Below, piece after piece: positions 3,776 through 20,886 of a stretch of 64,000 nt of DNA. How positions within the stretch are numbered: the first letter of the stretch is position 1; the number at the start of each line of letters is the position of its first letter. The translations under genes and the position numbers were made by a program. The notes under the pieces are model-generated. The model worked only from the letters and a program-made list of their open reading frames with translations, was not told the origin of the DNA and made no database searches. Source of the stretch: Advenella incenata (lineage in GTDB: Bacteria; Pseudomonadota; Gammaproteobacteria; Burkholderiales; Burkholderiaceae_B); contig NZ_SHKO01000003.1 of NCBI RefSeq assembly GCF_004217095.1, positions 434,001-498,000 on the forward strand. The letters are read 5' to 3'.

Positions 3776-4197
3776 ACTGTGCTCCTGTTTCAGTTGATGT
3801 AAAAATCAGTGTGAGACACGCTGATCACTTGAGTCTTTAGCGTAGCACGCACGATGGCGTGCTAACTGTCATGGATGTAACGTGCGGTAAACGATCGCGA
3901 TAATGGCATGCGCATCAAGCAAACGTGGCCATGCCAATTGTGTTTATTGCGCAAATCTGAAGACCCCTGCTATACAACGGTGTGCTGCATCTTTCGGCGT
4001 TGCCTGCCGGGACATAAATGTGCCGGCATAAGCGACCAATAGAAATAGTTACAAGAATCTGCATTACAGGCATGCGCGCGTTCGGATCGCATTTGTGTAT
4101 TCGATTTGCATATTTATCTTGCAAGTCTCATCGGCAAAATCTCATCTGCACAGTTTCATTGCGTCTCCTGGGCGCTCGGAATAGGGCTGAGGATAAA
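3776..4197. promoter_or_regulatory. csbD upstream region with inverted repeat
   Basis: Gene-free 422 bp. At 3843-3864 lies a perfect inverted repeat, TAGCACGC-6 nt-GCGTGCTA, upstream of csbD; it could be an operator or a hairpin ending transcription from the haloacid dehalogenase-like gene upstream on the same strand. No T-run follows, so a terminator is less likely. Nothing else recognised. Confidence 0.4.
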
Positions 4198-4938: not shown

Positions 4939-5340
4939 AGTTTATTTCCTCTGAAACCGGGTTAAGCGGGTGCCACATGGCGCACAAAATGTACTGCATG
5001 ACATGCTAGCCAATGTACTACATTGTCCGGCTGGATGGTGCCAGAGGCTCATTGTTCAAATGCAGACAGCGGTCCGGCAATCAGATTTGCCGGTATGCAT
5101 TGCCTCTGAAAACGCATGCGATAGCGTGGACAGACGAACGAAGGTACGCGCACGCTGTGCTCATTACATCCTGAATTTTCTATGTAAATGTACTCGTCTT
5201 TCGGCATTTACGGATTTTTTGAGCGGATCAGAATCACTAGAATTATTTTGCCGCCGCAGGACCCAAATCTGGATTCGGATGAACGGATCGGTCATATATG
5301 CGCTGGCGCAAATGTTGATTCACTCAGAGAGATAATTTGT
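4939..5340. other. Intergenic region upstream of the trimeric adhesin
   Basis: No gene recognised. The adhesin frame is open through the last 150 bp, but residues encoded there look nothing like a signal peptide or YadA domain, so I treat it as the 5' untranslated/promoter region of the adhesin and of the divergent HAD gene. Confidence 0.5.
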
Positions 5341-6438
5341 ATGTGTAGACACAAGAAAACCATACCACACGTGGTCGCCATGACGCTTGCATCCATGTTG
5401 CTGTTTAGCCAGCACGCTGGCGCGGAGCAGAGCGAGCCGACGTATACCACGCTCGGCTATGAAGCCGAGGCTTTTGGCGCAGGCGCGGTAGCTATCGGTT
5501 GGGGTGCAACGGCACGGGGAAAGGGCAGCATTGCCATTGGCTCAAAAGGCGAGGTAATCAGTTTAAACGACGCATTTGCCACGGGCGGTGGCATCGCCAT
5601 AGGCGGTGGTTCCCGATCCACAACCAACGGTGATGTCAATTTTGGTTCGCGCACACTGTCGGGGCTGCGTGATGGCGTCAGCGATGACGAGGCGGTCACC
5701 ATGCGTCAAATGAAAGCGGCGCAAGCCTATACCGATACTGTAAAAAATGATCTGCTCAGGATGCTCGATCCGGCCGGTTCGCCGATGCTGGCGCAAGCCA
5801 AGGCCTATTCCGATCTGTCCAAAACCCAGGCCATTGCTGCCGCCAATGCATATAGCGATGCTGTAAAGAAAGAAACCATTGCGACCGCCAATGCATATAG
5901 CGACGCTGTAAAGAAAGAAACCATTGTGCAGGGTAAAAAGCAAGCAGAGCAGATCATTGCGGCCGGGCGCGCGCAGTATGATACAAAGCTGTTGGCACAG
6001 GCAAGATCGTACTCGGATCGAGAGAACCAGATCACATTGGAAAATGCCAATGCGTACAGTGAGAAAGTAGGGCGCGCGGTCCTCTCTAGTGCGAACGCGT
6101 TCACAGAACTTCGCAGCAGGCAGGCCCAGGACAATGCGGTGCAGTTGTCCAGGCAATATACAGACCGGCGCGTGGACCAATTGCAGTCGCAAATTAAAAA
6201 ATTCCGCCGACGGGCCAATGCAGGTATTTCCGGTGCAATGGCAATGACCACCTTGACGCCACCGCCGACGGGTGCGAACACCTCTTTTGGGATGGCGATG
6301 GCAAGCTACAGAAATCAAGTGGCACTGGCCTCTGGTGTCACCTTCAGGACGGGAAAGAATAGCAATCTGCGCCTGAATACCTCATGGGATTCCGCTGGCG
6401 GTATAGGCGCGGCGGCCGGTTTTAATGTAGCCTGGTAG
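5341..6438 (+). CDS. Short YadA-like trimeric autotransporter adhesin
   Basis: Outer-membrane surface protein of 365 residues. In order: signal peptide (about 1-27, ending HAGA), a minimal head with YadA-type repeats (GAVAIGWGATARGKGSIAIG, about 45-65), a neck-like LRDGVSDDEAVTMRQ segment, an alanine-rich coiled-coil stalk with repeated ANAYSD units, and a C-terminal YadA anchor (about the last 75 residues, GISGAMAMTTL ... AAGFNVAW) expected to form the 12-strand trimeric barrel. The ATG at 5341 was chosen because the signal peptide follows it; the upstream in-frame ATG at 5188 would bury it. Far shorter than most family members. Stand-alone. Confidence 0.85.
   Translation: MCRHKKTIPHVVAMTLASMLLFSQHAGAEQSEPTYTTLGYEAEAFGAGAVAIGWGATARGKGSIAIGSKGEVISLNDAFATGGGIAIGGGSRSTTNGDVNFGSRTLSGLRDGVSDDEAVTMRQMKAAQAYTDTVKNDLLRMLDPAGSPMLAQAKAYSDLSKTQAIAAANAYSDAVKKETIATANAYSDAVKKETIVQGKKQAEQIIAAGRAQYDTKLLAQARSYSDRENQITLENANAYSEKVGRAVLSSANAFTELRSRQAQDNAVQLSRQYTDRRVDQLQSQIKKFRRRANAGISGAMAMTTLTPPPTGANTSFGMAMASYRNQVALASGVTFRTGKNSNLRLNTSWDSAGGIGAAAGFNVAW
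5841..5925 (+). repeat. Direct duplication (45-bp period) in adhesin stalk
   Basis: Two near-identical copies, 5841-5880 and 5886-5925, encode ANAYSDAVKKETI twice in the coiled-coil stalk. Only a C/T difference was noticed within the shared 40 bp. A length change of one unit keeps frame and the 15-residue coiled-coil register. Confidence 0.85.
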
Positions 6439-7582: not shown

Positions 7583-8152
7583 TCAATCGGGTGGTTCAAG
7601 CAGGCGTTCGATATCTCCAAATACCGCCTGCCATTCCTGTGGCGATAGATCAAAGAAGTTAAAACTGCGCAGCAGGAAAGCGCCTTCGTTGGCGATAAAG
7701 GCCAGCCGGGCATTGCGTCCTTGTTCAGTGGAAAAATCCAGCCCCTGCAATTGCCTGGCGTACCAGGCGCGAGTGTCGGCCAGCTGGTCGGAGTTCGGAA
7801 TCAGGCCGGCAAGCATGGCGGCAAAACGAGACTCATCCTGTACATCAGCCTCTCGGGTGACCTTTATGTGGGCGCGTACGTGCGCCAGCGCATCAGTATT
7901 GCCGCCTGCAGCCTGCGCAACCTCGGCGTCAAAATGATCACTCCAGCGCATGATCATCGCCTTGATCAGGCCCTCCTTATTACCGAAACAATACTGTACG
8001 CCGCCCTTGGTAATATTAGCGGCCCGGGCCAGCGCGTCCATCGTCAGGCCGGCGACACCGTGCTGTGCAACAATTGTCTCTGCTATGTCCAGCAACTTTT
8101 CTCGGTCAATTGAACGCGGCCTGCCCGCAGTTTGTGGTTTGTTGTCTTTCAT
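7583..8152 (-). CDS. TetR family transcriptional regulator
   Basis: Repressor of 189 residues. The N-terminal helix-turn-helix domain is seen in REKLLDIAETIVAQHGVAGLT ... ARAANITKGGVQYCFGNKEGL, the standard TetR pattern; the C-terminal part resembles the TetR_C domain seen in regulators of drug pumps (LTRSFNFFDL-like end). The ATG at 8152 is preferred over an upstream in-frame start at 8197, which would run through the palindromic operator. Divergent from a DHA2-type exporter with a perfect 14-bp palindrome between them, so it very likely represses itself and the pump. Confidence 0.9.
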   Translation of the reverse strand: MKDNKPQTAGRPRSIDREKLLDIAETIVAQHGVAGLTMDALARAANITKGGVQYCFGNKEGLIKAMIMRWSDHFDAEVAQAAGGNTDALAHVRAHIKVTREADVQDESRFAAMLAGLIPNSDQLADTRAWYARQLQGLDFSTEQGRNARLAFIANEGAFLLRSFNFFDLSPQEWQAVFGDIERLLEPPD

Positions 8153-8166
8153 ATCAATAATTACTT

Positions 8167-8180
8167 TCCATACGTATGGA
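8167..8180. promoter_or_regulatory. Probable TetR operator (14-bp palindrome)
   Basis: TCCATACGTATGGA is a perfect palindrome 15 bp upstream of the TetR start. A second half-site TCCATAC occurs at 8227-8233, and ATTCC-5 nt-GGAAT lies at 8204-8218. The placement in the shared TetR/exporter promoter region suggests the regulator's binding site. Confidence 0.65.
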
Positions 8181-8343
8181 TTTATATTATAGTACATCTC
8201 TTGATTCCCACAAGGAATAATTTGATTCCATACAAAGCAGACATATCGGACAGGATCGAACGCACACGTTGGTGCTATCCAGTATGTGACTGCAATGCGC
8301 TGGGCCTTTACTCATGGCCCTTGGCGCGAACGGATTTTTTATC

Positions 8344-9864
8344 ATGACTGCAAACCTCAAACATTCACATAACCGGTGGCTCATACTGGCTATCGTTTCC
8401 AGCGCGCTGTTTCTTATTGTCATTGACATGACGGTGCTTTACACCGCCTTGCCGCGTCTGACGCATGATCTGCAGACCAGTACTTCACAGAAGCTATGGA
8501 TCATCAATGCCTATCCATTGGTGGTTGCCGGTCTGCTGCCGGGCCTGGGTACGCTGGGTGACCGTCTGGGACACAAACAACTTTTTCTTAACGGTTTACT
8601 GGTGTTTGGGGTGGCATCGGTGGTTGCCGCTTTCGCGCCTGGCTCCGAAGTGCTGATAGCAAGCCGTGTATTGCTTGCCGTGGGCGCTGCCATGATGATG
8701 CCGGCAACATTGTCGATTATTCGACTGACCTTTGATGATGATAAGGAACGCGCCTTTGCCATTGGTATCTGGGCCGCTGTCGCGTCGGGCGGCGCCGCGT
8801 TCGGGCCGGTGGTCGGAGGTATTTTACTGGAGTTTTTCTGGTGGGGTTCGGTCTTTCTGATCAACGTGCCGGTGGTCGTGATCGCCTTTGTGCTGGGCGC
8901 ACGCGTTCTGGAACAGCGGCCGGGTGATAAGACGCGAGAATGGGATCTGATCAGTTCCGGGCAAATCATGGTTGCTTTAATTTGCCTGACCTACGCGATC
9001 AAGGAGCTGGGAAAACCGCAGGCTGACTGGATGGCATTTGTTATTACGCTTGCGCTCGGAGCTGGTGCTTTGGCCCTTTTTTTACGTCGGCAAAAGCGCA
9101 GCGCGGCACCCTTGATTGACCTTGGCTTGTTTCGCAATAAACAGTTTCTGCTTGGTGTTATCGCCGCATCTGTTATGTCGGCGACCCTCATTGGATTCGA
9201 ACTTGTCTTTAGCCAGCGGTTACAACTGGTAAGCGGCTACTCACCCTTGCAGGCCGGTCTGTTAATTCTGCCAATTCCACTTGCTGCCTTTTTTGCCGGA
9301 CCACTAATGGGGTCGCTGCAGCCAAAGCTGGGCACGGCTCGCCTGCTGTGGCTTTCACTGTTGGTCTCGGGTGTCGGTTCGCTTTGGTATCTGTTTGTTT
9401 TCGATGGCGCCGTACTATGGTGGTCAGTGGCTCTGGCGGTCTTTGGTTTTGGCGCGGGCGCGGCGATCACCGGCGCGTCCACTGCCATTATCAACAATGC
9501 TCCGGCCAGCAGGGCTGGAATGGCCGCGTCAATCGAAGAGGTGGCCTATGAGCTGGGTGGTGCGATGGGAGTCACTATTTTCGGCAGTATCATGTCTGTG
9601 ATTTATACGATGAAATTGGTGCTGCCCGCCGATTCTTTACTGCCGGATGTTGTACGTGATAGCCTGGATCAGGCGCATCTGGTGGCAGAGCAACTACCGG
9701 CCGAACAGGGCGAATGGCTGCTGTCGATTGCCTTCGCTTCATTTGACTCCGCCTTTATCTGGGTGGTAATGGGGGTGACTGCTATGCTGTTTGTGACCGC
9801 TGGTGTCATCTATCTTGTGAATTTGCGGTCAGCAGCAGCAGCGGGTTCTGCTACACGTCATTAA
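8344..9864 (+). CDS. MFS transporter, DHA2 family (QacA/SmvA-like multidrug exporter)
   Basis: Inner-membrane proton-coupled exporter of 506 residues with the 14 hydrophobic segments expected of the DHA2 group. Visible signatures: motif D-like DMTVLYTALPRL in helix 1, motif A GDRLGHKQLF between helices 2 and 3, and the antiporter motif C region GGAAFGPVVGGILLE in helix 5. Closest remembered relatives are SmvA/QacA exporters of quaternary ammonium dyes and biocides; the true substrate is unknown. Start at 8344 gives MTANLKHSHN; an in-frame ATG at 8314 is possible. Under likely control of the divergent TetR repressor. Confidence 0.9.
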   Translation: MTANLKHSHNRWLILAIVSSALFLIVIDMTVLYTALPRLTHDLQTSTSQKLWIINAYPLVVAGLLPGLGTLGDRLGHKQLFLNGLLVFGVASVVAAFAPGSEVLIASRVLLAVGAAMMMPATLSIIRLTFDDDKERAFAIGIWAAVASGGAAFGPVVGGILLEFFWWGSVFLINVPVVVIAFVLGARVLEQRPGDKTREWDLISSGQIMVALICLTYAIKELGKPQADWMAFVITLALGAGALALFLRRQKRSAAPLIDLGLFRNKQFLLGVIAASVMSATLIGFELVFSQRLQLVSGYSPLQAGLLILPIPLAAFFAGPLMGSLQPKLGTARLLWLSLLVSGVGSLWYLFVFDGAVLWWSVALAVFGFGAGAAITGASTAIINNAPASRAGMAASIEEVAYELGGAMGVTIFGSIMSVIYTMKLVLPADSLLPDVVRDSLDQAHLVAEQLPAEQGEWLLSIAFASFDSAFIWVVMGVTAMLFVTAGVIYLVNLRSAAAAGSATRH

Positions 9865-10023: not shown

Positions 10024-10656
10024 TTAACGAGCTTTATGATTATGGGCAACAGATGCCAGTTGTGTAATTTGCCCAAGCTCTGAATAAAGATTTCCTCCGA
10101 GTCTGGCCATTAAACCCGCATCTATCGACCTGAAATGCCCGGCGGCATCGAGCAAGTGCGAGGCGACATAAAGTCCGGTAACTCTGCCGATGACGGCTGT
10201 GCAACCCAGATCGTCGGGCAGTTCGGGACGAATCCTGACCAGTGTGAGTAAACGGCATTCGAGTGCGGCCGGTGTTCCGTCGACACGCGGAGCTTGTACG
10301 GTTTCACTGCGTATTGCAGGCAGATTGACCATGTCAAATTCATTGACTCCATATGGGGCAGGCTCCGAGGTTACATGCATGCTTTCAAGAAACGCTCTGG
10401 AGACCATGTTTATTACGTATTCTTTAGAACTGCGTATATTTCGAAGGGTGTCCTTTTCTCGTCGGTCGACGGGGTTCACACAAGAAAAGATCACGGTTGG
10501 AGGGCTACTGGAAAGTAGGGTGAAATACGAAAATGGAGCGAGGTTGATAGTCCCGTCTATGCTTGACGAGCTTACCCAGGCAATAGGTCGTGGTGCCACA
10601 ATTGCGTTGAAAATCGATGGTTTTACCAAACGAGAATTTCTAAGGTCGAAAAACAT
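10024..10656 (-). CDS. Flavin reductase-like domain protein (DIM6/NTAB family)
   Basis: 210-residue FMN-binding split-barrel protein. The N-terminal NAIVAPRPIAWVSS and NLAPFSYFTLLSSSPP blocks are the conserved flavin-binding part of the DIM6/NTAB group, members of which reduce flavin for two-component monooxygenases or bind FMN with unknown role. It follows a Bug protein gene by 6 bp, so the two are co-transcribed. A paralogue sits at 16247-16882; by eye about half the residues in the first 60 positions match. No partner monooxygenase lies in the window. Confidence 0.85.
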   Translation of the reverse strand: MFFDLRNSRLVKPSIFNAIVAPRPIAWVSSSSIDGTINLAPFSYFTLLSSSPPTVIFSCVNPVDRREKDTLRNIRSSKEYVINMVSRAFLESMHVTSEPAPYGVNEFDMVNLPAIRSETVQAPRVDGTPAALECRLLTLVRIRPELPDDLGCTAVIGRVTGLYVASHLLDAAGHFRSIDAGLMARLGGNLYSELGQITQLASVAHNHKAR

Positions 10657-10662
10657 TTTTTC

Positions 10663-11634
10663 TCACTGAGGCTTAATGCCGGCATTTTTAACAATTTCGG
10701 CCCATTTGCTGTTTTCAGAAATTTGAAATTGCATCAGTTCGGTGGGGGACATTGGCATCGGAGTAGCACCGGTATTGCGAAACAATTGTGCAAGACGATC
10801 CGATGAGACTGCCTTGGTGAGTGCAATATTGAGACGCTCCACAATTGGCGTGGGCGTTCCGGCAGGAGCCCACATTCCGACCCACCAGGTCAGACTATAA
10901 TTTTCCACTCCTGCCTCCTGCATCGTAGGTACATCGGGCAGCACGAGGGCGCGTGTGCCGCCGGAAACAGCCAGGGCGCGCAATTTACCCGCCTTGACCA
11001 TTGGCGCCGAGGTATTCAAGTCAGCAAACATTGTGTCAAATTCCCCGCCAATAAGATCGGTCGTCGCCTGGGGGTTGGTTTTGTATGGGATCTCCAGCAG
11101 TCGGGTGTGGGTCAATTGACTATATAGCGCCATTGCGATACGTGGCGTGGTTCCGGCCCACCCATAGGTCAGCTTTCCAGGTTCCCGTCTGGCTTTTGCT
11201 GTGAGTTCAGCAACAGAATGGATCGTTGAAGTTGCTGGTACGAGTAACACCATAGCACCAGCGCCAATCCCTCCGATGGGGGCAAAATCCTTGACATAAT
11301 CGTAGGGCAGATCCCGATATAAGCTTTGATTCGCAGCATGGGTTGCATTGGTTCCTACCAAAATGGTGTATCCGTCGTTTTTAGCCTTCGCGACATGATT
11401 GGCGGCAATCCCACCCCCTGCTCCAGGTCTGGGTTCAACGACAACAGCCTGCCCGAGTATGTCGGACATGTCATCGGCTATTGCTCGCGCCACCGCGTCG
11501 ATTGCGCCGACACAGCACATCACCATGTGAATCTGCTTTTCTGGATATATTGCCTGTGCCTGAACTGGTAGACAAAGGGCTAAGCAGACCAGTACCGAGC
11601 TGGAAAAATGAGCAAGATTTTTACTTAGGCGCAT
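10663..11634 (-). CDS. Bug family tripartite tricarboxylate-type substrate-binding protein (atypical loop)
   Basis: Periplasmic binding protein of 323 residues with an N-terminal signal peptide (cleavage after VQAQA). Family marks: PRPGAGGGIAANHVAKAKNDGYT, DFAPIGGIG, IPYKTNPQATTDLIGGEFD, and VLPDVPTMQEAGV. Bug proteins bind small acids for TctAB-type permeases or act as sensors; no tctA/tctB is adjacent. The first ligand loop, normally PFxxGGxxD, reads MVMCCVGAIDAVAR: it lacks the Pro and Gly-Gly and carries two cysteines. Upstream is a 14-bp palindrome; downstream the flavin reductase gene. Confidence 0.88.
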   Translation of the reverse strand: MRLSKNLAHFSSSVLVCLALCLPVQAQAIYPEKQIHMVMCCVGAIDAVARAIADDMSDILGQAVVVEPRPGAGGGIAANHVAKAKNDGYTILVGTNATHAANQSLYRDLPYDYVKDFAPIGGIGAGAMVLLVPATSTIHSVAELTAKARREPGKLTYGWAGTTPRIAMALYSQLTHTRLLEIPYKTNPQATTDLIGGEFDTMFADLNTSAPMVKAGKLRALAVSGGTRALVLPDVPTMQEAGVENYSLTWWVGMWAPAGTPTPIVERLNIALTKAVSSDRLAQLFRNTGATPMPMSPTELMQFQISENSKWAEIVKNAGIKPQ

Positions 11635-11656
11635 GAGGGCTCTTTTCTAGTGAATG

Positions 11657-11670
11657 ATTAATGCATTAAT
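11657..11670. promoter_or_regulatory. 14-bp palindrome upstream of Bug/flavin reductase pair
   Basis: ATTAATGCATTAAT is a perfect palindrome 23 bp before the Bug gene start. Position suits an operator, possibly for the IclR-type regulator encoded next upstream. AT-rich, so chance is a possible explanation. Confidence 0.45.
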
Positions 11671-12017
11671 AGGGATCAAGTGATTGAAAAAATAAATGTA
11701 TTGCTGCTTTCACTTATCTCATTCGACGAACTTCAGTGTGCTCCATTCGTAAAAGAATACATGTGAGTTTTGATTCTCGGCCAGGACAGTTTGCCAGGTC
11801 GCGTTACCGCGCCAGTTCGATGTGAAAACGAATTGATGACTGAAAAATTCAGATTGTGTTTTTTACTTGTTGCATTAGCGCAATCTTGCCTCTGGAAAGC
11901 GTTTTTGTCCAATCGCCAATCTGGTCTTTTCGCTGGCTGGAATGTGCATTGCAGCGATTGCTGTAGCGCTTTGAACAATGAAATCGTGCATCCAGCAGCG
12001 TGGGCTTTGCAAATGAC
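11671..12017. other. Intergenic region, nothing recognised
   Basis: Between the Bug gene and the IclR gene, both minus strand. Open frames on either strand have no recognisable domain. Probably promoter and leader of the Bug/flavin reductase pair. Confidence 0.4.
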
Positions 12018-12863
12018 TTATTTGTCTTTGTGTTTCAAGCTGTTCTTCGCGTTCGAGAGTGCTTGGTCATGCGAAGGATTATCCAATTGCTGCAGGCGGG
12101 TACTCACGTTTCGTGCCAGTTCCTGCAGATCCGCAAGATAGGTGGCAATCGCTTTTTTATCAGTCAGGACTGACGAAAAAAAAGTCAGGCCAACTGTGGC
12201 AACGACTCGGTTTTGAACGAGAATCGGAACGGCGATCGTTTGCGACACCGGCCGGACTGTCCTGCTTCTTGTGGCATAGCCATTGCTGCGTATATCCTGG
12301 AGTAAAGCCTGGAAGGCTACCCGATCACGAGTAGGTGCATCTTCCACATTATTCGAGAGGGTGAGGGCGTCAAGTATAATTTCCTGCTCCTCATTGTCAC
12401 AAAACGCCAGATATGCGCGTCCTAATGCCCGGCTAGCCAGACTCAGACGCATGTTGATCGATGAATGTAATAACGCCAGCGGAGACAGCGGAATGGTGCT
12501 GTAGCGAACCACCACCGCATTGTCTTCAAAAACGGCGATCGCCATTGGCCACTTGACCTTCAATGTCATTGCATCCATGAGCGACATGGCAGCCTCGACA
12601 ATTTGAGGCTCACTATGATAGCCAGAGGACAAAGATCGGACTTCCGAAGTCAAGTAATAGGCTCCGTGTTGCGGCGCGTGTCGCACCAGCAGCAGATCCT
12701 CGAGCGTTCTCAGCAGACGTACGATGGTAGGCTTGGGTAGGCTGGTCTGAAGGTGCAGCATATCTATTGTCGAGACGGGTTGACGATTCATGGCCTGTAA
12801 GATGCCGATGGCGCGCGCAACGGAGCGAACGGATTGAGATGAGCTCAAAACAGATTCCTGCAA
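12018..12863 (-). CDS. IclR family transcriptional regulator (MhpR-like)
   Basis: 281 residues: an N-terminal winged helix-turn-helix (SVRSVARAIGILQAMNRQ ... LPKPTIVRLLRTLED) and a C-terminal IclR effector domain (about 90-260). The block LSLASRALGRAYLAFC and the overall pattern resemble MhpR, which senses phenylpropionate-type acids, suggesting an aromatic or organic-acid effector. The start is uncertain: a TTG at 12863 has no ribosome binding site, while the next in-frame TTG at 12848 has AGGA in front. Lies in the middle of the minus-strand cluster and is the only regulator in it, so it is the natural candidate to control it. Confidence 0.86.
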   Translation of the reverse strand: MQESVLSSSQSVRSVARAIGILQAMNRQPVSTIDMLHLQTSLPKPTIVRLLRTLEDLLLVRHAPQHGAYYLTSEVRSLSSGYHSEPQIVEAAMSLMDAMTLKVKWPMAIAVFEDNAVVVRYSTIPLSPLALLHSSINMRLSLASRALGRAYLAFCDNEEQEIILDALTLSNNVEDAPTRDRVAFQALLQDIRSNGYATRSRTVRPVSQTIAVPILVQNRVVATVGLTFFSSVLTDKKAIATYLADLQELARNVSTRLQQLDNPSHDQALSNAKNSLKHKDK

Positions 12864-12939
12864 AAAATTGACGGCGTATTTCGATTTATCCAGGCTCGGC
12901 CTTTAATCGTGTCTCTTGAAAACCCGGTCAGGTTTTATA

Positions 12940-13683
12940 TTACACGACCAGGCAGGATGCGGCCGCTTTTGCGGCTTGACGCAATAAGGATTGATCGGAT
13001 CCCACGACAATCCAGTTCGCTCCTAGTGCTGCATAGGTATCTCGCTCTGTAACATTGCCCACTGCGATGCCGGCAATCTTTCCAGCCGCTCGGGCACTTT
13101 TCATGGCGTGCTCAGTCGCGCGCGTGACGAGCGCATGTTTCGGATCGTCAAGTCCAAAGGACAGGGCAAGGTCTGCGCGGCCTATAAAAATGCCGTCGAT
13201 GCCGTCAACAGACAATATATCCTCAATTGAATCGACTGCAGCTTTACTTTCGATCTGGGCAATGATCAAGGTGCCTTCTGCGTCGCTTAAGCACTGTTGC
13301 ATGCTAAGCGTCCCGTAACGGGCTGAACGCGGCGAGCTTGAAAAGCCTCGCTCGCCATCACGGTAGCGCGATTTACCTACAATAGCACGCGCCTGCTGGG
13401 CATTATCGACATGTGGTACAAGCAAGCCCGCTGCACCTATATCAAGTACCGAAAGAATAGTTGAGGCGGCCGTATCAGGGATACGGACCATCAATGGCCA
13501 GTTTGCCGCTCTCCCGGCAAGCATAAGCAGATCAAGCGCAGATCTGTCCAGGGGGGCATGCTCGGCATCCAGGACACCGAAATCGAGCGAACTGAGACCT
13601 AGAATTTCAACGACATGTGCGGAACTTGATTTGATGAATGTCCCGATCTGTGCTCGATTAGTAGATGGTTTTGATAGTTTCAT
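12940..13683 (-). CDS. HpcH/HpaI family aldolase
   Basis: Class II (metal-dependent) aldolase-type protein of 247 residues related to HpcH/HpaI and 2-dehydro-3-deoxyglucarate aldolase GarL, which cleave 2-keto-4-hydroxy acids to pyruvate and an aldehyde. Visible: GTFIKSSSAHVVEI at the N-terminus, the catalytic/metal block LDFGVLDAEHAPLD, GLLVPHVDNAQQA, metal-binding Glu in AQIESKAAVDSIEDI, and GIFIGRADLALSFG. In the cluster it would release pyruvate at the end of a pathway. Preceded closely by a Bug gene (54-bp gap) on the same strand. Confidence 0.87.
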   Translation of the reverse strand: MKLSKPSTNRAQIGTFIKSSSAHVVEILGLSSLDFGVLDAEHAPLDRSALDLLMLAGRAANWPLMVRIPDTAASTILSVLDIGAAGLLVPHVDNAQQARAIVGKSRYRDGERGFSSSPRSARYGTLSMQQCLSDAEGTLIIAQIESKAAVDSIEDILSVDGIDGIFIGRADLALSFGLDDPKHALVTRATEHAMKSARAAGKIAGIAVGNVTERDTYAALGANWIVVGSDQSLLRQAAKAAASCLVV

Positions 13684-13736
13684 ATATAGTTTGTTCGGTG
13701 TAAGCGGTGATGTTTTTGAGAAACACTCAAGCGAGC

Positions 13737-14693
13737 CTATTTTATTTTCATTCCCATATCCTGCATGAGCTTGGTAAAGAATTGGTCTTCCTCTTCTACT
13801 GCATGACCGTAGTCTGCAGGGTTTAAAAACTCAATTTCGTTGTAGCTCTTTTGCATCAGGTCAATGTAGCGAGGGTCTTTGATCGCATATTCAACGGCGC
13901 CGGAAAATTTGTTAACAATATCCGGGGGGGTACCATGCGGCATGAAGAAACCGTAGCGTGCTACCACAGCAATGTCTACGCCTTGTTCACGCATCGTTGG
14001 GACATCTGGTGAAGGAGCAAAGCGCTGCGCACTGGTAACAGCCAAAGCGATTATTTTTCCGTCCTGCGTTTGTGGCATGATAAGGCTTGGTGTGGCAATG
14101 GCTGTTTCGACGATGCCAGAGAGCAATGCGGTTGTGGCGGGCCCGCCACCCTGGTACGGTATTTCCTCAATTGTTATTCCGGCGACAGCGGCCATGGCAT
14201 CGGCTGCCATTTGTGTTGATGTGCCATGTCCGGGAGAGGCGTATCGGATTTTGCCAGGCGCAGCGCGTGCCCGAGCCAGAAAATCCTTGAAGTTTTTGAT
14301 GCCCGATCGCTCATGAGTGACCAGGGTGAATGGAATTGCGATGACATTAGCCACTGGCGCAAAACTTTTCCAGGTATAGGTGGCTCCTGTTATTTTGGGA
14401 GCGGTAACAATTGCTCCGCTACCGGCAAACAGCACTGTATAACCGTCCGGTTTGCCGGAAGCCACCCGGGAGGAGCCGACAACACCACCTGCACCACCCA
14501 CATTTTCGACTACAACAGCTTGGCCAAGTTTTTCCTGTAAGCGCTCTTGTAGTGGTCGGATGTAATGATCGGATCCACCCGCAGCGTAAGGTACGATGAT
14601 CCGAATGGGTCTCGTCGGATATTCACTGGCAGCACAAGCGGCCAGGGGGATTAAGGACGCTGCGGTTAAAGTCCAATAACGTATCAGATTCAA
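13737..14693 (-). CDS. Bug family tripartite tricarboxylate-type substrate-binding protein
   Basis: Periplasmic binding protein, 318 residues. I chose the TTG at 14693 because AAAAGGAG lies five bases before it and the protein then starts MNLIRYWTLTAASLIPLAACAAS, a clean signal peptide; the ATG at 14711 would put the ribosome binding site inside the gene. Family blocks: IIVPYAAGGSD, ENVGGAGGVVGSSRVASGKPDGYT, IPYQGGGPATTALLSG, and PDVPTMREQG. Likely co-transcribed with the aldolase downstream and divergent from the NTF2-fold gene. Confidence 0.88.
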   Translation of the reverse strand: MNLIRYWTLTAASLIPLAACAASEYPTRPIRIIVPYAAGGSDHYIRPLQERLQEKLGQAVVVENVGGAGGVVGSSRVASGKPDGYTVLFAGSGAIVTAPKITGATYTWKSFAPVANVIAIPFTLVTHERSGIKNFKDFLARARAAPGKIRYASPGHGTSTQMAADAMAAVAGITIEEIPYQGGGPATTALLSGIVETAIATPSLIMPQTQDGKIIALAVTSAQRFAPSPDVPTMREQGVDIAVVARYGFFMPHGTPPDIVNKFSGAVEYAIKDPRYIDLMQKSYNEIEFLNPADYGHAVEEEDQFFTKLMQDMGMKIK

Positions 14694-14895
14694 GGCGTCT
14701 CCTTTTGGCATTTATAGTGTTGTCAATTTGCACTGATCTTTTATAAAAATGAGTATACGGACGCGCAGGTGGCGCACCAAGCACTCTGTTTGAGCTTTCC
14801 GTCAGACGAAATATATTCTCGGCGCCGTAGCGGTAATGAGTCTAGTTCAGTAGCATTGGAATGGATCATGTTGAATCTTTCCATTTGAGGACAAA

Positions 14896-15330
14896 ATGCA
14901 GAAAATGCTTTCAATAAGACAGGAGCTTGAGGCGCTGGCCGTTGACTATTGGTATGAAGTAGATGCCAATGGCGGGGTGCGGGCACATGAGTTTTATACC
15001 GCAGACGCGATCTTCTCCACGAGTATGAAGACGCGACAGGGGCAGGCGCAGATACAGGATTTTTACCGTATACGCAGGCAACGGGGCCCGCGTCTGTCTT
15101 TACATATCGTGCAAAATTTTCGACTTGAACAGGTACAGGACCAGCAGGCACGCTGCGGCTATATTATGAGTTTATATGCGGCCGACGGCGAGCCCGTGCT
15201 GCCTTCGCGACCGCCTATCATGATTGCGGCGGTCAAAGAGACATTGCTGCGCCAGCCCGACCTTTCATGGCGCTACAGTGTACGCACATTGACCGCATTG
15301 TTTCGTGACGACACGCCGACCACTGGATAA
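14896..15330 (+). CDS. NTF2/SnoaL-like fold protein
   Basis: 144-residue protein with the cone-shaped alpha+beta pattern of SnoaL/NTF2-like proteins: N-terminal helix (IRQELEALAVDYWYEVD), HEFYTADAIFSTS, RQGQAQIQDFYRIRR, and C-terminal strands ending RWRYSVRTLTALF-like. Relatives are ketosteroid-isomerase-type enzymes, lyases, or small subunits of ring-hydroxylating dioxygenases; no large subunit is adjacent. GAGGAC precedes the ATG. The only plus-strand gene inside the minus-strand catabolic cluster; divergent from a Bug gene and convergent with the cupin gene (17 bp). Confidence 0.68.
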   Translation: MQKMLSIRQELEALAVDYWYEVDANGGVRAHEFYTADAIFSTSMKTRQGQAQIQDFYRIRRQRGPRLSLHIVQNFRLEQVQDQQARCGYIMSLYAADGEPVLPSRPPIMIAAVKETLLRQPDLSWRYSVRTLTALFRDDTPTTG

Positions 15331-15347
15331 GAGCAAAGGCGGACGGG

Positions 15348-16217
15348 TTATGCTTCAGCGGTGTAGTCACCGGCGTTATAGACCCATCCTTTGGCAATAA
15401 AATCACCGCGTGGGGGCGAAAATATGTCCACAAGCACGTGCTGGTCCTGACCGACTCCCTCAGACGTATGTATAAGGTAAACCGGGATGACGAGCAGTGA
15501 TGGGGATGACGCGTCACAGTGTTCATCGTCCTGCCAGAGATTGGCGTCTTTGCCCCACTTCACTCGTAAATGGTGTTTATAGTGGCCCTTGATAGCCAGT
15601 GATCCCTGCTCGTGATTGGCGTGGCTGTGCGGACTCAATTGGGTGCGCGAACGAGGGCCATCGTAATCCACCCAGTTGATGCTGAGCGTTTCTGTCTGGA
15701 ACATTTTCAGACGGGGATTGTCCGCGGGCGCAGCAATATCGTTCAGCTGCAGCACCTGGACTGCGTCGAGACGGGTCAGGCGTCGATAAGGTTTTCCCAC
15801 TGGGTTTACTCGTGGGTCCGGATCCAAATAGGCCGCCGCGTTCAGCATTTTTTTCAGATCAATATCGTCGCGTGATGAGGCAATGACGCAGTAGCGACCA
15901 CCGCGTTGTAGCGTGATCGAATAGGGGCCGGCTGGTACGATGCAAATCGAGCCTGCCGCTGCGGTTACCGCAGGCTTTTGCTCCTGATGGATCGTGCCGC
16001 CTGCTTCGGGCATGAGAACCAATGTCTCGTGTATGCTTTGCACAGAGGTCGTTTCACCGTCGGCGTCGGCTTCGAGCCATTCCACGATGAAATTTTGCCC
16101 CCGCATCAGCCACCGTCGCAGGCCCCCGACCTGTTCTGATGAGGCCTCATCGAAGATTTGGAAACTGCGTTTGCGTACACTGAACGGGCTCATGGTCTGG
16201 TCTGGGGATGATTGCAT
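15348..16217 (-). CDS. Cupin domain protein, putative dioxygenase or isomerase
   Basis: 289-residue protein with two cupin-like halves. The C-terminal half holds probable metal ligands in HSHANHEQGSLAIKGHY and a later LIHTSEG histidine; the N-terminal half has cupin strand patterns (HETLVLMPEAGGTI, SICIVPAGPYSI) without an obvious metal site. This layout fits a bicupin oxygenase or isomerase, but I do not recognise a characterised member. The ATG at 16217 has AAGG upstream and is preferred over a TTG at 16250 that overlaps the flavin reductase gene. Directly downstream of that gene, so same operon. Confidence 0.72.
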   Translation of the reverse strand: MQSSPDQTMSPFSVRKRSFQIFDEASSEQVGGLRRWLMRGQNFIVEWLEADADGETTSVQSIHETLVLMPEAGGTIHQEQKPAVTAAAGSICIVPAGPYSITLQRGGRYCVIASSRDDIDLKKMLNAAAYLDPDPRVNPVGKPYRRLTRLDAVQVLQLNDIAAPADNPRLKMFQTETLSINWVDYDGPRSRTQLSPHSHANHEQGSLAIKGHYKHHLRVKWGKDANLWQDDEHCDASSPSLLVIPVYLIHTSEGVGQDQHVLVDIFSPPRGDFIAKGWVYNAGDYTAEA

Positions 16218-16246
16218 GTTGTTAACCTTGATAAATAAACTGCGGA

Positions 16247-16882
16247 TCAATTAGATTGGCCTGCACGGCGAAAGGGCGCGGGCATTTGCAATACAGTACC
16301 AACAGTGGCGTAGTCGATCCCGCCCAGGCGCGTTATTGGCCTGGCCTTGCCCGAATCGAAGCGACCATCTTCTGTCATGTATTGTTCGTCCATATGTATG
16401 CCCACCACGCGTCCTAATACCATGCTGCTGCGCGTTTCTCCTGGATGTGCTGGCAATATCTCGACGATCTGCAAAAGCTGGCATTCCAGATTGGCGGGGG
16501 CCGCCGCGACACGTGGCGGGCGTACGAAAACTGAGGGCGCCTTTTCCAGCCCCGCCAGTTCAAACTCATCGATATGCTGAGGGCAGGGCGTGGATGTCAG
16601 ATTCATCGCTTCGCGCAAGTCCCAGGAAACGAGGTTGGTCACAAATTCCTTTGTATCCCTTACATTGGCCAATGTGTCTTTTTCAAGTCGATCGTCCGGC
16701 GTGTTACACGAGAACATCACGACGGCCGGAGCGGTCGAAACCAGATTGAATTGAGAAAAGGGGGCCAGATTGACCTTGCCTGAACTGCTGATCGTACTGA
16801 TCCACCCGATAGGGCGGGGTGCGACGATTGCATTGAACAACGAGCGTTTAAAGCCGGGTGCGGTAAGAGGATCCAGAAACAT
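16247..16882 (-). CDS. Flavin reductase-like domain protein (second copy)
   Basis: 211-residue DIM6/NTAB-type FMN-binding protein, paralogous to the one at 10024-10656; shared blocks include NAIVAPRPIGWIS and NLAPFSQFNLVS. AAGGA stands before the ATG, which directly abuts the stop codon of the upstream amidohydrolase, indicating translational coupling. Probably supplies reduced flavin or acts as an FMN-dependent enzyme in the cluster's pathway; which of the two is not shown by sequence. Confidence 0.85.
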   Translation of the reverse strand: MFLDPLTAPGFKRSLFNAIVAPRPIGWISTISSSGKVNLAPFSQFNLVSTAPAVVMFSCNTPDDRLEKDTLANVRDTKEFVTNLVSWDLREAMNLTSTPCPQHIDEFELAGLEKAPSVFVRPPRVAAAPANLECQLLQIVEILPAHPGETRSSMVLGRVVGIHMDEQYMTEDGRFDSGKARPITRLGGIDYATVGTVLQMPAPFRRAGQSN

Positions 16883-17743
16883 CTATATTTCCTTGATGCC
16901 AAAAATTCGGGCCGGGTTATCCCAGAGCACCTTGCGCTGGTCCGCCATGTCCGGGAACCAGTGGGAAAGCATATTGAGCTCCGGTCCGTAATCGATGCGC
17001 GTTTTAGCGCGCAGAAAGGGCCAGTCTGATCCCCAGATACAACGGTCCTCTGAATAAGCCTCGATGAGCTTTGCAACATAGGGCTCCACATCGTGATAAG
17101 GCCAGCCTTGTACGGAGAAACGAAATAGCCCCGACAGCTTGATGATAGCGTTGTGTGATCGTCCCAGTTCCAGCAGTGCCTGAAATCCGGGTTGATTAAC
17201 ACCCTTTTCCAATATAGGGCGACCACAATGGTCAATCACGATAGGCGATCGGCATACCCGCAATATATCGAATGCAGCCAGCAAGTGGGCTTCTTCGTGG
17301 TAATGAATCTGTACGATAAGGTCGCGCTCTTCGGCCAGCGAAAGCAGTCTTGCGCCGCCAGCGCCGGTTAGCGCCGGACTGGCCGGAAAACTCAAATTGA
17401 AGCGTATTCCAACGACACCTGCATATATCATGGCGTCCAGTTGCGCCTCGGTGATGTCGTGGGGAACGACGGCGATACCCTTGAAGCGTCCGTTGGAGGC
17501 GCCAATGATATCCAGCATATTTCGGTTATCGACACCGTATCCACCAAGAGGATTGATGAGCACGGCATGGCTTATTCCATGCGCATCCAGGACCGCAGCA
17601 TAGTGTTGGGCCGATCCCGTTTCGTTGGCCAGTATTGAAAATCCGCTGCTCTCGGCAAGCGGGTACCTGCTCAGGTCATAAACGTGGGCGTGTGTATCGA
17701 CAGAAAATGACGGTGTATCGTCTCGTACTTCAGTGAAAATCAT
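16883..17743 (-). CDS. Amidohydrolase family protein (PDC hydrolase-like), copy 1
   Basis: TIM-barrel metal-dependent hydrolase of 286 residues of the Amidohydro_2/COG3618 group, related to 2-pyrone-4,6-dicarboxylate hydrolase LigI. Motifs in order: VDTHAHVYD (first-strand HxH), QIHYHEEAH, VIDHCGRP, IIKLSGLFR, and IWGSDWPF with the general-base Asp. Family members hydrolyse lactones. It lies between the second amidohydrolase and the flavin reductase, ending one base before the reductase start. Substrate unknown; a lactone intermediate is the reasonable inference. Confidence 0.87.
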   Translation of the reverse strand: MIFTEVRDDTPSFSVDTHAHVYDLSRYPLAESSGFSILANETGSAQHYAAVLDAHGISHAVLINPLGGYGVDNRNMLDIIGASNGRFKGIAVVPHDITEAQLDAMIYAGVVGIRFNLSFPASPALTGAGGARLLSLAEERDLIVQIHYHEEAHLLAAFDILRVCRSPIVIDHCGRPILEKGVNQPGFQALLELGRSHNAIIKLSGLFRFSVQGWPYHDVEPYVAKLIEAYSEDRCIWGSDWPFLRAKTRIDYGPELNMLSHWFPDMADQRKVLWDNPARIFGIKEI

Positions 17744-17911
17744 AATGAACTGGCCTAGTGTGAGCTGATGCTCAAATGGATCGATTCAGTTTAGAAGCAG
17801 GCATCGGCAGGGTCAATATCAAGTTGTGCGCTTTTCACTTGGCGAAAAGACATGCCGGCCGGCTGAACATTACAGCTATGAATTAACAGGGGATAGGGGC
17901 TGTTGCAGGTT

Positions 17912-18748
17912 CTACGAAAAATAGAGTTGCAATGCCGTTTCACCCGCAATCTTGCGTCGTGCTTGTTCATCGGGCACCCAGCTTTTAAACGCAGCAATGG
18001 TATCGGCATAACTGATTCTTTCTTCAAAGGCGGCAAAAGGCCAATCGCTGCCCCATAATAGCCGTTCGGGCCCGGCCGATTTGAGAAGCTGGGCAGCGCA
18101 TTGCCGCGCGAGTTCCTGAGAAGCAAGCCTGAATCCGGCGGACAATTTGACCCATGTGTTGCCCTTGTCAATTGACTGCAGTATTGCCTGGAACCCGGCC
18201 GAGGTGAGCCCATGTTCCTGATCAGGCCGCCCGAAATGATCGATCACGACTTTGACGTTGGCTTGTTCGAGCAAACGGATTGTCTGCGGCAGGCGATGGC
18301 AGTCATCGTGCACATGCACATGCCAGTCCAGATCCGCCACTCGTTTGAGCAATCTGCGATATTCTGTAGAGTTCAGATCTGGACGGTCTTTGACGTTGCG
18401 CCACTGCAGACGTATTCCTACCACGCCATCATTTTTCATCCGTTCAAGTGTATACATGTCAAGCTGGGGATGGGCAATGATTGTGGTGCGCAGCCGGGGG
18501 TGTCGACGACAGGCTCTGATGTGGTAATCGTTGTAGTCGCCATAGATGCTGGCCGCAGCGAGCACGGCGAACTGTACCCCATGTTCGTCCAGGACCGATA
18601 GGTATCGTTCAACGCTTGCATCCTGCGTCGGCGCATGCCAGGCATTCGCGTTCAGAGGCATATCCAGGGTATACAGGTGTGCGTGAGTATCTACAAGCGG
18701 GGCTTCGGGCCGTAAGGGGGACAAGGGCGACAAAGACATGGTGATCAC
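17912..18748 (-). CDS. Amidohydrolase family protein (PDC hydrolase-like), copy 2
   Basis: 278 residues with the same motif series as its neighbour: VDTHAHLYTLD, HVHVHDDCH, VIDHFGRPD, WVKLSAGFR, LLWGSDWPF. The two copies are clearly paralogous but well diverged, so they may act on successive or alternative lactones. The GTG at 18748 overlaps the stop of the upstream Bug gene by four bases (GTGA); an ATG three codons in (18739) is the alternative. A 168-bp gap separates it from copy 1. Confidence 0.87.
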   Translation of the reverse strand: MITMSLSPLSPLRPEAPLVDTHAHLYTLDMPLNANAWHAPTQDASVERYLSVLDEHGVQFAVLAAASIYGDYNDYHIRACRRHPRLRTTIIAHPQLDMYTLERMKNDGVVGIRLQWRNVKDRPDLNSTEYRRLLKRVADLDWHVHVHDDCHRLPQTIRLLEQANVKVVIDHFGRPDQEHGLTSAGFQAILQSIDKGNTWVKLSAGFRLASQELARQCAAQLLKSAGPERLLWGSDWPFAAFEERISYADTIAAFKSWVPDEQARRKIAGETALQLYFS

Positions 18749-19767
18749 TTATTGATGGTGGATGAAAGATTTCTTGCAACTGTTTGCCATTTTGCCAGTT
18801 CGGCCAAGATGAACTGACCAAATTGGGCGGCGTCGCCACCCAAAGGGCGTAATCCTATCTTGTCCAGTCTGGAGCGAGCGTCCTGGCTATTTAAAAATTT
18901 ATTGCCTTGCCCATTCAGTGTGTCAATGATACCCGCCGGTAAGCCTGCAGGACCTGCCAGCCCGATCCATCCGGTTGCCGAGGTCGGAATGCCAGCTTCA
19001 CGCAGTGTTGGAGTGTCAGGTAGTGAAGGGTCGCGCGTCTCACCCAAAGAGGCAATCGCACGCGCTTTTCCGGACTGGATTTGGGTCAAATAAGTGGGTA
19101 CGAGATCTATACTGAAATCGACAACGCCTGCGATAAGGTCGTTCATGGCTGGTGTTGAGCCTTTATAGGGAACGTGTAATATTTTTGTGCCAGTCTGAAC
19201 CTGAATCATCTCGCCTGCCATGTGGCCCATGGAACCCTTACCAGCGGTAGCATAGGTATATTTCCCAGGTGCATGCATGACGGTTGCAATAAATTGATCC
19301 ATCGTCGCTATCGGTACAGAGGGGTGAGCAACCAGTACGAGAGGTGCCTGCGCGACCAATAGTATTGGCGCGAAATCGCGGACTGGATCAAATGGTGTGT
19401 TTGTGTACACCAGCTTGTTCAGCGATAGCGGGCCTGTGGTTGACAGGAGCAGCGTATAGCCGTCGGCAGCTGCTTTGGCAACAAATGCGGCACCGATATT
19501 GCCATTAGCTCCTGCACGATTCTCTACGATAAAGGGCTGGCCCAGCGTGTTCGAAAAATAGTCTGCCATCATCCGGGCAAGCACGTCTGTAGATCCACCG
19601 ACAGGGTAAGGAACGATCAGACGCACCGGTTTGTCTGGCCAAGTCGACTGTGCCCAAGCACAGGAAAAAGCAAGGGCCGATAAAAGAAAAAATAGCGTTA
19701 GCAACGGTTTTCTTGCAAAGCGATTGCAAGCAGATATTCGCCTGGGTGAAAGGGTTGAAATACTCAA
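18745..19767 (-). CDS. Bug family tripartite tricarboxylate-type substrate-binding protein
   Basis: Periplasmic binding protein, 340 residues, with a long signal peptide (KPLLTLFFLLSALAFSCAWAQ). The start is a TTG at 19767; GGAGAC at the right distance supports it and no in-frame ATG precedes the signal sequence. Typical blocks: RLIVPYPVGGSTDVLAR, ENRAGANGNIGAAFVAKAAADGYT, HVPYKGSTPAMNDLIAGVVD, LPDTPTLREAGIP. Stop overlaps the start of amidohydrolase copy 2, so uptake of a substrate and its hydrolysis are directly coupled genetically. Confidence 0.9.
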   Translation of the reverse strand: MSISTLSPRRISACNRFARKPLLTLFFLLSALAFSCAWAQSTWPDKPVRLIVPYPVGGSTDVLARMMADYFSNTLGQPFIVENRAGANGNIGAAFVAKAAADGYTLLLSTTGPLSLNKLVYTNTPFDPVRDFAPILLVAQAPLVLVAHPSVPIATMDQFIATVMHAPGKYTYATAGKGSMGHMAGEMIQVQTGTKILHVPYKGSTPAMNDLIAGVVDFSIDLVPTYLTQIQSGKARAIASLGETRDPSLPDTPTLREAGIPTSATGWIGLAGPAGLPAGIIDTLNGQGNKFLNSQDARSRLDKIGLRPLGGDAAQFGQFILAELAKWQTVARNLSSTINK

Positions 19768-19899
19768 TTTTTGTCTCCGTCTGATTTCGAACTAGATCGG
19801 GCATTCTATCGTTATCGGATTTTTTAGACGATGTGATAGATTGCATGTTTTGTCAGGCGGAATGATCAATATCGTGCCTGACCGTCGACGCTGAGGGCT

Positions 19900-20886
19900 T
19901 TATTGAGCGCCAAGATTGATGGCGCTGGCAACCTCCCCATAGATCTTGAGTTCTTTTTTTAATCGTTGGGAAAACTGGTCGGGGGTCAAGGGTTCGGCAG
20001 CGACACTTCCTTGGGTAAGCAAGGCGTTTTTGAACGCTTCTTTTTGAATAATTTCGTTTACATCAGCATTGATCTTAAATACTATTTCAGGCGGCGTATC
20101 TGCCGGAGCCAGCAATCCATGCCACGTGCTGACTATAAAGTCTGGTACACCGCTTTCGGCAAAAGTGGGAACATTCGGAAGTTGCTTGAAGCGCTGATTT
20201 GAGGCAACAGCCAGGGCACGCAGTTTTCCCTGTTCGATAAAATTCATTACGCTGCCGGTGGAAGGAATCGACATATCTACTACACCGCCGATCAAATCCG
20301 TCATTCCTTGCGCGGCTCCTTTATAAGGCACATGCATGATGCGGGTGCCCGTTTTCAATTTGAACATTTCACCGGCCAGATGCGGAATACCTCCGATTCC
20401 CTGCGATGCATAGCTAAATTGCTCCGGTGCTGCTTTTACGGCGGTTATAAACTGGTCCAGGGTTTGATAGGGCGCATCGGCTTTGACTACCAGTATATTA
20501 CTAACGTCGACGGTCATCGCGACAGGTGAAAACGATTTTTCAACGTCATATCGCAAATCTTTGTTAACGAATTTATTCAGATTATGGCTTGTTGCTGTTA
20601 CCAGAATGGTGTAGCCGTCCGGTTTGGCATTGGCGACGGCGGTGGCTGCAATTGTGCCGTTGGCGCCCGGGCGGTTATCTACAACAATGGGTTGCCCCCA
20701 GCGCTTTGATAATTCCTGCGCTAACAGGCGAGCCGACTGGTCAATGGCGCCGCCGGGACTGTATCCCACAATGAAGGTGACTGTGTGGTTGGGAAAATTT
20801 TGCGCGAGGGATGCGCCGCAAAAGATGGCTGCGCACAGGGTTAAAACAGGTGCGAAAAAACGAACTGATCGTATCCGGTTATTCAT
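19900..20886 (-). CDS. Bug family tripartite tricarboxylate-type substrate-binding protein
   Basis: Periplasmic binding protein, 328 residues, signal peptide ending SLAQN. Family blocks: TFIVGYSPGGAIDQSAR, DNRPGANGTIAATAVANAKPDGYT, HVPYKGAAQGMTDLIGGVVD, LPNVPTFAESGVP. First gene of the minus-strand run; 132 bp separate it from the next Bug gene. By eye it is more like that neighbour than like the Bug proteins at 10.7 and 13.7 kb, suggesting tandem duplication. No membrane components nearby. Confidence 0.9.
   Translation of the reverse strand: MNNRIRSVRFFAPVLTLCAAIFCGASLAQNFPNHTVTFIVGYSPGGAIDQSARLLAQELSKRWGQPIVVDNRPGANGTIAATAVANAKPDGYTILVTATSHNLNKFVNKDLRYDVEKSFSPVAMTVDVSNILVVKADAPYQTLDQFITAVKAAPEQFSYASQGIGGIPHLAGEMFKLKTGTRIMHVPYKGAAQGMTDLIGGVVDMSIPSTGSVMNFIEQGKLRALAVASNQRFKQLPNVPTFAESGVPDFIVSTWHGLLAPADTPPEIVFKINADVNEIIQKEAFKNALLTQGSVAAEPLTPDQFSQRLKKELKIYGEVASAINLGAQ

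Follow-up and report, generated by a model that had tools for sequence, protein, structure and literature searches.

A conserved but modular gene cluster of Advenella incenata with a bicupin as a candidate hydratase of a proposed lactone-degrading route

Twelve open reading frames (ORFs) at positions 10024-20886 of a 64,000-nucleotide stretch of Advenella incenata DNA (the window, C3:434001-498000 of a 4.9-Mb genome) form a real catabolic neighbourhood, which is conserved but modular, rather than one fixed twelve-gene unit. They encode two flavin-domain proteins (flavR1 and flavR2), two amidohydrolases (amdA and amdB), a bicupin, an HpcH/HpaI-type aldolase, an NTF2/SnoaL-like protein, an IclR-family regulator and four Bug receptors (Bug1 to Bug4). 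We tentatively read the cluster, at somewhat less than an even chance, as encoding uptake and a lower catabolic route, in which lactone hydrolysis is followed by hydration by the bicupin and retro-aldol cleavage to pyruvate. From the gene families, the synteny, the conservation of the metal site and catalytic residues, and the cupin-aldolase linkage observed, we infer the reactions, their order and the substrate class as follows. The substrate would be a carboxylated lactone or a pyrone-like compound, which the Bug receptors would capture as the acid outside the cell. The amdA protein would open the lactone in the manner of LigI acting on 2-pyrone-4,6-dicarboxylate (PDC), and amdB would do the same for a second substrate or isomer. 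The bicupin, with a metal on H208, H210, E214 and H261, would hydrate the oxo-dienoate product, or position its double bonds for hydration. The aldolase would cleave the 4-hydroxy-2-oxo acid, with pyruvate and another oxo compound as products, and the IclR protein would serve as the substrate sensor. By analogy, the hydrolase-cupin-aldolase set fits the reaction order of LumW, LumY and LumX in the lumichrome catabolism of Nocardioides simplex, in which, according to PMC12746152, the cupin LumY adds water in vitro between the pyrone hydrolase LumW and the retro-aldolase LumX.

The amidohydrolase, the flavin-reductase-domain protein, the bicupin and usually the IclR regulator recur in Advenella, in other genera of its family and in a Xanthobacteraceae bin. 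According to tblastn and gene maps, the locus of A. kashmirensis W13003 (L001) contains Bug4, a remnant of amdB (43 amino acid residues matched), amdA, flavR2, the cupin, NTF2, Bug2, the aldolase and IclR. The locus of Advenella sp. S44 (L002) contains the same set, but with amdB whole and Bug3 present. L036, from the same genus as the window, is without amdB-Bug3 and flavR1-Bug1, and shares both flanks with the window (aceE/queE/queD and MFS/TetR). L035, from a different genus of the same family, contains amdB, amdA, the cupin, the aldolase, IclR, Bug1 and flavR1, and its flavR2 match spans only 60 residues. L037 contains six genes (IclR, Bug2, NTF2, cupin, flavR2 and amdA) between ThiC/ThiG/ApaH-like and regulator-like genes, the flanks being named by eye. 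The Xanthobacteraceae locus (L003) contains amdA, NTF2, flavR2, the cupin, one Bug and a DHDPS-family protein, and gives no IclR match by tblastn with the chosen representatives. Thus, flavR1-Bug1 and amdB-Bug3 are variable among relatives, and flavR2, the cupin and a hydrolase are more constant. The conserved neighbourhood that the first-pass annotation proposed to look for is found as synteny, but not as a twelve-gene unit. A close copy of the cupin is present in four (G000, G115, G165 and G178) of the ten genomes of the genus sample, only a distant cupin in three and none in three. The cupin, MFS, queE and aceE genes of G178 all look split (L036:9528-10426 and 2178-4815), a pattern more suggestive of sequencing frameshifts than of decay. 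A literature search, part of whose results were judged by title, finds no publication describing such a cluster or pathway.

The cupin is likely 289 residues long and probably begins at ATG 16217 instead of TTG 16250, as its homologues in L001-L003, in the chosen translations, begin at the same residue. Its predicted model, of low confidence (mean predicted local distance difference test score, pLDDT, of 60), consists of two cupin barrels. The protein has one intact HxH-E-H metal site, of which H208, H210 and E214, together with Q215, are conserved in all 35 cupins aligned, and H261 in 34, the exception being the split L036 copy. Pfam gives no match to the cupin at 1e-3, and none of ten family members scanned reaches the gathering score of any Pfam cupin model. 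The family is present in 22 of the 200 family-sample genomes and in 13 of the 398 from the phylum sample, the window's genome being included in both. Short fragments account for two of the 13, and copies can be missing from the latter count because at most six candidates per genome were scored. One member, from Mameliella alba, is annotated as two short ORFs (L061:8890-9788). This unnamed cupin family is thus widespread and a candidate for a new enzyme function inside an otherwise known kind of pathway.

The gene company of the cupin was counted in 47 loci with one cupin each (the window, L001-L003, L035-L066 and L080-L090). These include 20 regions from the 35 family-sample matches listed, 12 of the 20 listed among 27 plasmid records that match the cupin, and ten regions from 14 phylum-sample matches (one region with two cupins, the two weakest fragments omitted) plus the second G165 copy. 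Partners were counted by tblastn with selected representatives, so that a partner counts as missing where none of these representatives matches; the gene maps rest on a home-made gene caller, and the counts are not independent, because several loci share a genus or come from near-identical genomes. Within 10 kb of the cupin, an aldolase is found in 32 loci, IclR in 38, Bug in 31, a flavin-reductase domain in 24, NTF2 in 15, Amidohydro_2 in 19, DUF6282 in 15, and either of the last two in 30. An HpcH_HpaI aldolase lies within this distance of 17 of the 22 listed cupin copies of 17 genomes. These genomes contain 124 HpcH_HpaI matches, and 0.031 is expected per copy (binomial 5e-22, uncorrected for kinship).

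A tree of 46 of the 47 cupins, the broken L061 cupin being omitted, separates clade A (17 rows including the window, support 100/100) from clade B (29 rows). Clade-A loci contain flavR (17), IclR (16), a hydrolase (12) and NTF2 (8). The flavR gene is 6.5 kb from the cupin in L038/L039; in L035 a short flavR2 piece is adjacent and the whole flavR1 is about 3.4 kb away. A compact flavR2-cupin-Bug-CHMI-IclR cluster is seen at L041:8741-12534, with similar sets in L043-L046; these loci belong to a single genus of the window's family. Clade-B loci contain an aldolase (24), IclR (21), a hydrolase or DUF6282 (17), flavR (7) and a ring-cleaving dioxygenase of the BphC, LigB or VOC type (5). In L055, from Rhodococcus opacus, genes for an MhpA-like hydroxylase, a flavin reductase, an NTF2 protein, an alpha/beta hydrolase, BphC (415 bits against an NCBIfam cut-off of 366), the cupin and an aldolase adjoin. 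No hydratase is annotated in this stretch, though the PLSDB plasmid gene tables are incomplete. A meta pathway encoded there would be complete but for the hydratase, a role for which the cupin is a candidate. L089 resembles L055 in its gene set; it encodes a p-hydroxyphenylacetate 3-hydroxylase (701 against 650 bits) together with a VOC protein that is catechol-2,3-dioxygenase-like but stays below cut-off, and all six FAA_hydrolase matches of its genome are on contigs other than that of the cupin. L048 and L049 contain LigB and an HsaA-like oxygenase, L048 also LigA, and no FAA_hydrolase is near the L048 cupin among the matches listed for its genome, G150 (8 of 10). If the cupin is a hydratase, it would fill the hydration step in several meta-cleavage and lactone routes that show no gene for the usual hydratase, and the occurrence of cupin hydratases would reach well beyond lumichrome.

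Several observations weigh against the proposed route. The fold matches of the cupin do not favour a hydratase. The aldolase is within 10 kb in only 7 of the 17 loci of the window's own clade, and the aldolase nearest to the clade-A copies of G050 and G096 is 22-25 kb away on the same contig. A CHMI-like isomerase is present in five clade-A loci of one genus, four of them without a hydrolase or aldolase; the fifth has a hydrolase match 7 kb from the cupin. L088, the fifth of the clade-B loci with a ring-cleaving dioxygenase, has an FAA_hydrolase in addition to the cupin, and the proposed route assigns no step to flavR1, flavR2 or the NTF2 protein. LumY is a 16-kDa protein, whereas the window protein is a 289-residue bicupin, and the comparison between them is one of analogy. 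Because ten of the 17 clade-A loci are without a nearby aldolase, the final reaction may differ there or have its gene elsewhere.

The cupin may instead be an Fe(II) ring-cleaving dioxygenase, similar to gentisate or salicylate dioxygenase, with lactonisation, the amidohydrolase and the aldolase acting later. We regard this alternative as unlikely. Its 3-His-1-Glu site is intact, quercetinases are its top fold matches, and salicylate 1,2-dioxygenase is also listed. The ring-cleaving dioxygenase representatives sought have no match in any of the 17 clade-A loci, and the CHMI-like isomerase beside five cupins and an HpaB monooxygenase near the cupin in L046 would suit such a route. However, the five clade-B loci mentioned above already have a ring-cleaving dioxygenase beside the cupin, and many non-oxygenases are found at similar Z in the fold list. 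A function cannot be read from the fold search, because dioxygenases, decarboxylases, isomerases and seed proteins tie at the level of Z and none is singled out.

The hydrolases and the aldolase bear on the first and last steps of the proposed route. The PDB matches of amdA and amdB include 2ffi (a putative PDC hydrolase), 4i6k (an amidohydrolase) and LigI (4d8l), and the best NCBIfam model for both is 4-sulfomuconolactone hydrolase (NF042924; 145 and 104 bits, under the cut-off of 500 bits). H31, H33, R124, H180, R217 and D248 of LigI are preserved in both proteins, as read by eye. H18/H20, H172 and D240 of amdA align with H31/H33, H180 and D248, as do the corresponding residues of amdB, so that the catalytic pattern of LigI/COG3618 is present in both. 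We take these to be the catalytic positions of LigI, and R124, R130 and R217 to be its substrate arginines. In amdA, R124 and R217 are kept, but R130 is replaced by Pro, and the set of substrate arginines is incomplete. In amdB, Arg is found at all three positions, but R130 is beside a two-residue gap, where other members of the alignment (A3) differ. These comparisons suggest that amdA and amdB are probably lactone hydrolases of the LigI type, that amdA probably acts on a different substrate, so that we do not claim it as a PDC hydrolase, and that amdB is possibly nearer to pyrone dicarboxylate. DUF6282 proteins with an HxH motif near the start are seen at L056:9889-10806, L080:8061-9032, L085:14929-15840 and other loci, mostly without Amidohydro_2. 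They resemble the Amidohydro_2 profile only moderately (65%, 146 columns), and are possibly an unrecognised hydrolase for the same step.

The 247-residue aldolase belongs to the HpcH_HpaI superfamily (PF03328, 115 against 25 bits), but scores below the equivalog cut-offs of HpaI, GarL and YfaU in NCBIfam (143-154 against 369-441 bits). YfaU and GarL-type enzymes are its best solved relatives, which would fit a sugar-acid route, with lactonases acting on an aldonolactone, the cupin as a KduI-like isomerase and the aldolase acting on a 2-keto-3-deoxy sugar acid. Fuconolactonase is weakly matched by both hydrolases (about 30 bits), and KduI is among the fold matches of the cupin. However, neither a sugar dehydrogenase nor a dehydratase is among the twelve genes, the hydrolases align with LigI and have their higher scores with 4-sulfomuconolactone hydrolase, and some clade-B relatives of the cupin are beside aromatic ring-cleavage genes. 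The sugar-acid route is rather improbable. The first-pass annotation had proposed a degradation route for a ring or lactone compound; the lactone-hydrolase-like enzymes and the pyruvate-type aldolase support it, and the substrate may be aromatic, a pyrone or sugar-derived.

The nearest solved relatives of flavR1 and flavR2 are 3bpk (NTA monooxygenase component B), 4z85 (2-nitrobenzoate nitroreductase), both at 68-87 bits, and an FMN-binding protein. No NCBIfam model, including those of the HpaC/HsaB-type reductases, is matched by either protein at 1e-3, in contrast to the 165-residue reductase of L055, which matches eight models at 1e-9 or better, though none above cut-off. Among L001, L002, L035, L036 and L037, a whole copy of flavR1 in the stretch read is found only in L035, where flavR2 is short. 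L001, L002 and L036 have flavR2 whole and show no flavR1. This result suggests that the two can substitute for one another. The first-pass annotation named both as flavin reductases and pointed to the missing large oxygenase subunit; the twelve genes indeed include none, according to the ORF list and Pfam. Nevertheless, a missing partner is not implied, because the proteins are of the NtaB/NbaA size class and match no NCBIfam model.

That flavR1 and flavR2 are reductases for a two-component monooxygenase encoded elsewhere, the cluster being a peripheral piece of that route, is unlikely. The Flavin_Reduct domain and the relationship to 3bpk would agree with it. However, flavR is near the cupin in all clade-A loci, none of which matches the oxygenase representatives sought (HsaA, MhpA, Rieske, VOC and LigB types; HpaB, luciferase-type and P450 were not among them). 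Likewise, no oxygenase is recognised by eye in the flanks of the six-gene cluster of L037. The HpaB gene of L046 already has a reductase partner: according to reading and a Pfam scan, it is paired with its own small, HpaC-like reductase gene at a distance of 3-4 kb from the cupin, and the neighbouring MarR gene is on the opposite strand. The name of 4z85 also suggests that the family includes enzymes acting on their own substrate. We guess that the flavR proteins carry out a reduction that either precedes or follows the opening of the ring. The constant presence of a flavR relative in clade A, mostly without another recognised oxygenase, would also allow flavR2 and the cupin to be a new kind of two-component oxygenase, in which electrons from the flavin-domain protein keep the cupin metal reduced, or restore it to that state, and the cupin is the large, O2-activating component; this reading is very improbable.

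The remaining proteins say less about the route. The IclR protein passes the cut-off of PRK09834.1-4 (290 against 251 bits), which we take to be the MhpR model, in agreement with the MhpR-like regulator named in the first-pass annotation. The NTF2 protein scores 20.8 bits with SnoaL_4, under the cut-off of 24. Its model (pLDDT 65) has nine fold matches at E<0.001 (template modelling score 0.44-0.61), including a putative ring-hydroxylase, bile-acid 7-alpha dehydratases and CaMKII hubs. These give the fold alone, and no function is drawn from them. All four Bug receptors match TctC above cut-off. Four in 10.9 kb compares with 0.33 expected (Poisson P 4e-4) from the 150 scored matches of the genome, but this flat expectation ignores that Bugs are non-randomly placed. 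They say little about the substrate, and were rejected as a pointer to it, because the genome holds at least 150 TctC/Bug matches (150 of 175 candidates scored). Bug expansion is known in Advenella; PMC5812351 tabulates 116 and 129 (the column is taken as TctC), and PMC5994714 also covers it. A fifth TctC/Bug receptor is encoded at 27068-28078 of the window, beyond the cluster.

The layout of the cluster is given in Table 1; eleven genes are on the minus strand and one on the plus strand, as had been annotated. The earlier family names also hold. Pfam detects two Flavin_Reduct, one HpcH_HpaI, two Amidohydro_2 and one IclR protein and a weak SnoaL_4 match among ten proteins, including two of the four Bugs, and the cupin is recognised through its predicted fold. 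Of the overlapping or abutting starts previously described, flavR2 and amdA abut and amdB and Bug3 overlap by 4 bp (the gap between flavR1 and Bug1 is 6 bp), but the 4-bp overlap of the cupin and flavR2 vanishes with the ATG 16217 start, because it needs TTG 16250. Base composition shows no G+C break (48-56% in the cluster, 49-55% in the flanks shown) and thus no sign of foreign origin. Promoter and terminator scans are at about the level of chance (16 against 11.2 expected and 14 against 12.9 expected) and were not used. At lower positions of the window, a TetR-like regulator is divergent from an MFS-like exporter, by eye (7583-9864), and stays beside the cluster in L036. An ORF at 5188-6438 resembles a trimeric autotransporter, also by eye, in that coiled-coil-like segments recur along it and its end is outer-membrane-anchor-like.

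Table 1. Genes of the cluster, with positions in the window
Feature	Position	Strand	Basis and remarks
flavR1: Flavin_Reduct-domain protein, NtaB/NbaA type	10024..10656	-	Pfam, PDB relatives; 45% identity with flavR2
Bug1: TctC/Bug periplasmic receptor	10663..11634	-	Pfam; adjoins flavR1 here and in L035
IclR-family regulator, TTG start	12018..12863	-	Pfam; PRK09834.1-4 above NCBIfam cut-off
HpcH/HpaI-type aldolase, near YfaU/GarL/HpaI	12940..13683	-	Pfam, NCBIfam, PDB relatives
Bug2 receptor	13737..14711	-	TctC profile, tblastn
NTF2/SnoaL-like protein	14896..15330	+	SnoaL_4 below cut-off; weak NTF2-like fold
Bicupin, proposed metal-dependent hydratase	15348..16217	-	ORF listing began at TTG 16250; ATG 16217 likelier
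flavR2: Flavin_Reduct-domain protein	16247..16882	-	Pfam, PDB relatives; relative near cupin in 17/17 clade-A loci
amdA: Amidohydro_2, LigI-like, proposed lactone hydrolase	16883..17743	-	Pfam, NCBIfam, PDB alignment
amdB: second Amidohydro_2, LigI-like	17912..18748	-	32% identity with amdA; variably present
Bug3 receptor	18745..19767	-	TctC profile; adjoins amdB here and in L002
Bug4 receptor	19900..20886	-	Pfam, tblastn

Among known systems, the PDC branch of protocatechuate 4,5-cleavage (LigI, LigJ and LigK) shares with the proposed route the order of lactone hydrolysis, hydration and aldol cleavage, and amdA and amdB have the catalytic positions of LigI. It differs in that amdA is without Arg at the position of R130, that the window aldolase is of the HpcH/HpaI type, and that the hydratase of the window would be a cupin in place of LigJ. 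The homoprotocatechuate (hpa) meta pathway shares an HpaI-like aldolase and, in relatives, the CHMI-like isomerase (HpaF family) that adjoins clade-A cupins in five loci from one genus, the p-hydroxyphenylacetate hydroxylase of L089 and the HpaB of L046. However, no HpaD, HpaE, HpaG or HpaH family, as we take these families to be assigned, is found among the twelve genes by the Pfam scan. The proteins 4z85 and 3bpk share family and size with flavR1 and flavR2 but are distant, and, unlike in their systems, no nitro-aromatic or NTA genes are recognised nearby. The first-pass annotation had found no textbook pathway to match. This holds for the cluster as a whole, as only the IclR protein is above an NCBIfam cut-off among ten proteins scanned (Bug1 and Bug4 omitted), but the reaction logic has a precedent in lumichrome catabolism. 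According to PMC12746152, that route likewise uses a pyrone hydrolase, a cupin hydratase and a pyruvate-yielding retro-aldolase, as proposed here, and LumX (26 kDa) is close to the mass expected of the 247-residue aldolase. LumW is a 40-kDa, Co(II)-dependent enzyme, the extradiol dioxygenase LumE acts upstream, and no flavin-reductase protein is named for the LumW-LumY-LumX steps in the sections considered, unlike in the window cluster. Its authors state that the lactonase and the hydratase are not reliably identifiable from sequence and were found through assay. Thus, by analogy, the logic of lactonase, cupin hydratase and retro-aldolase is already precedented by lumichrome, and a hydratase role for this cupin family would be new.

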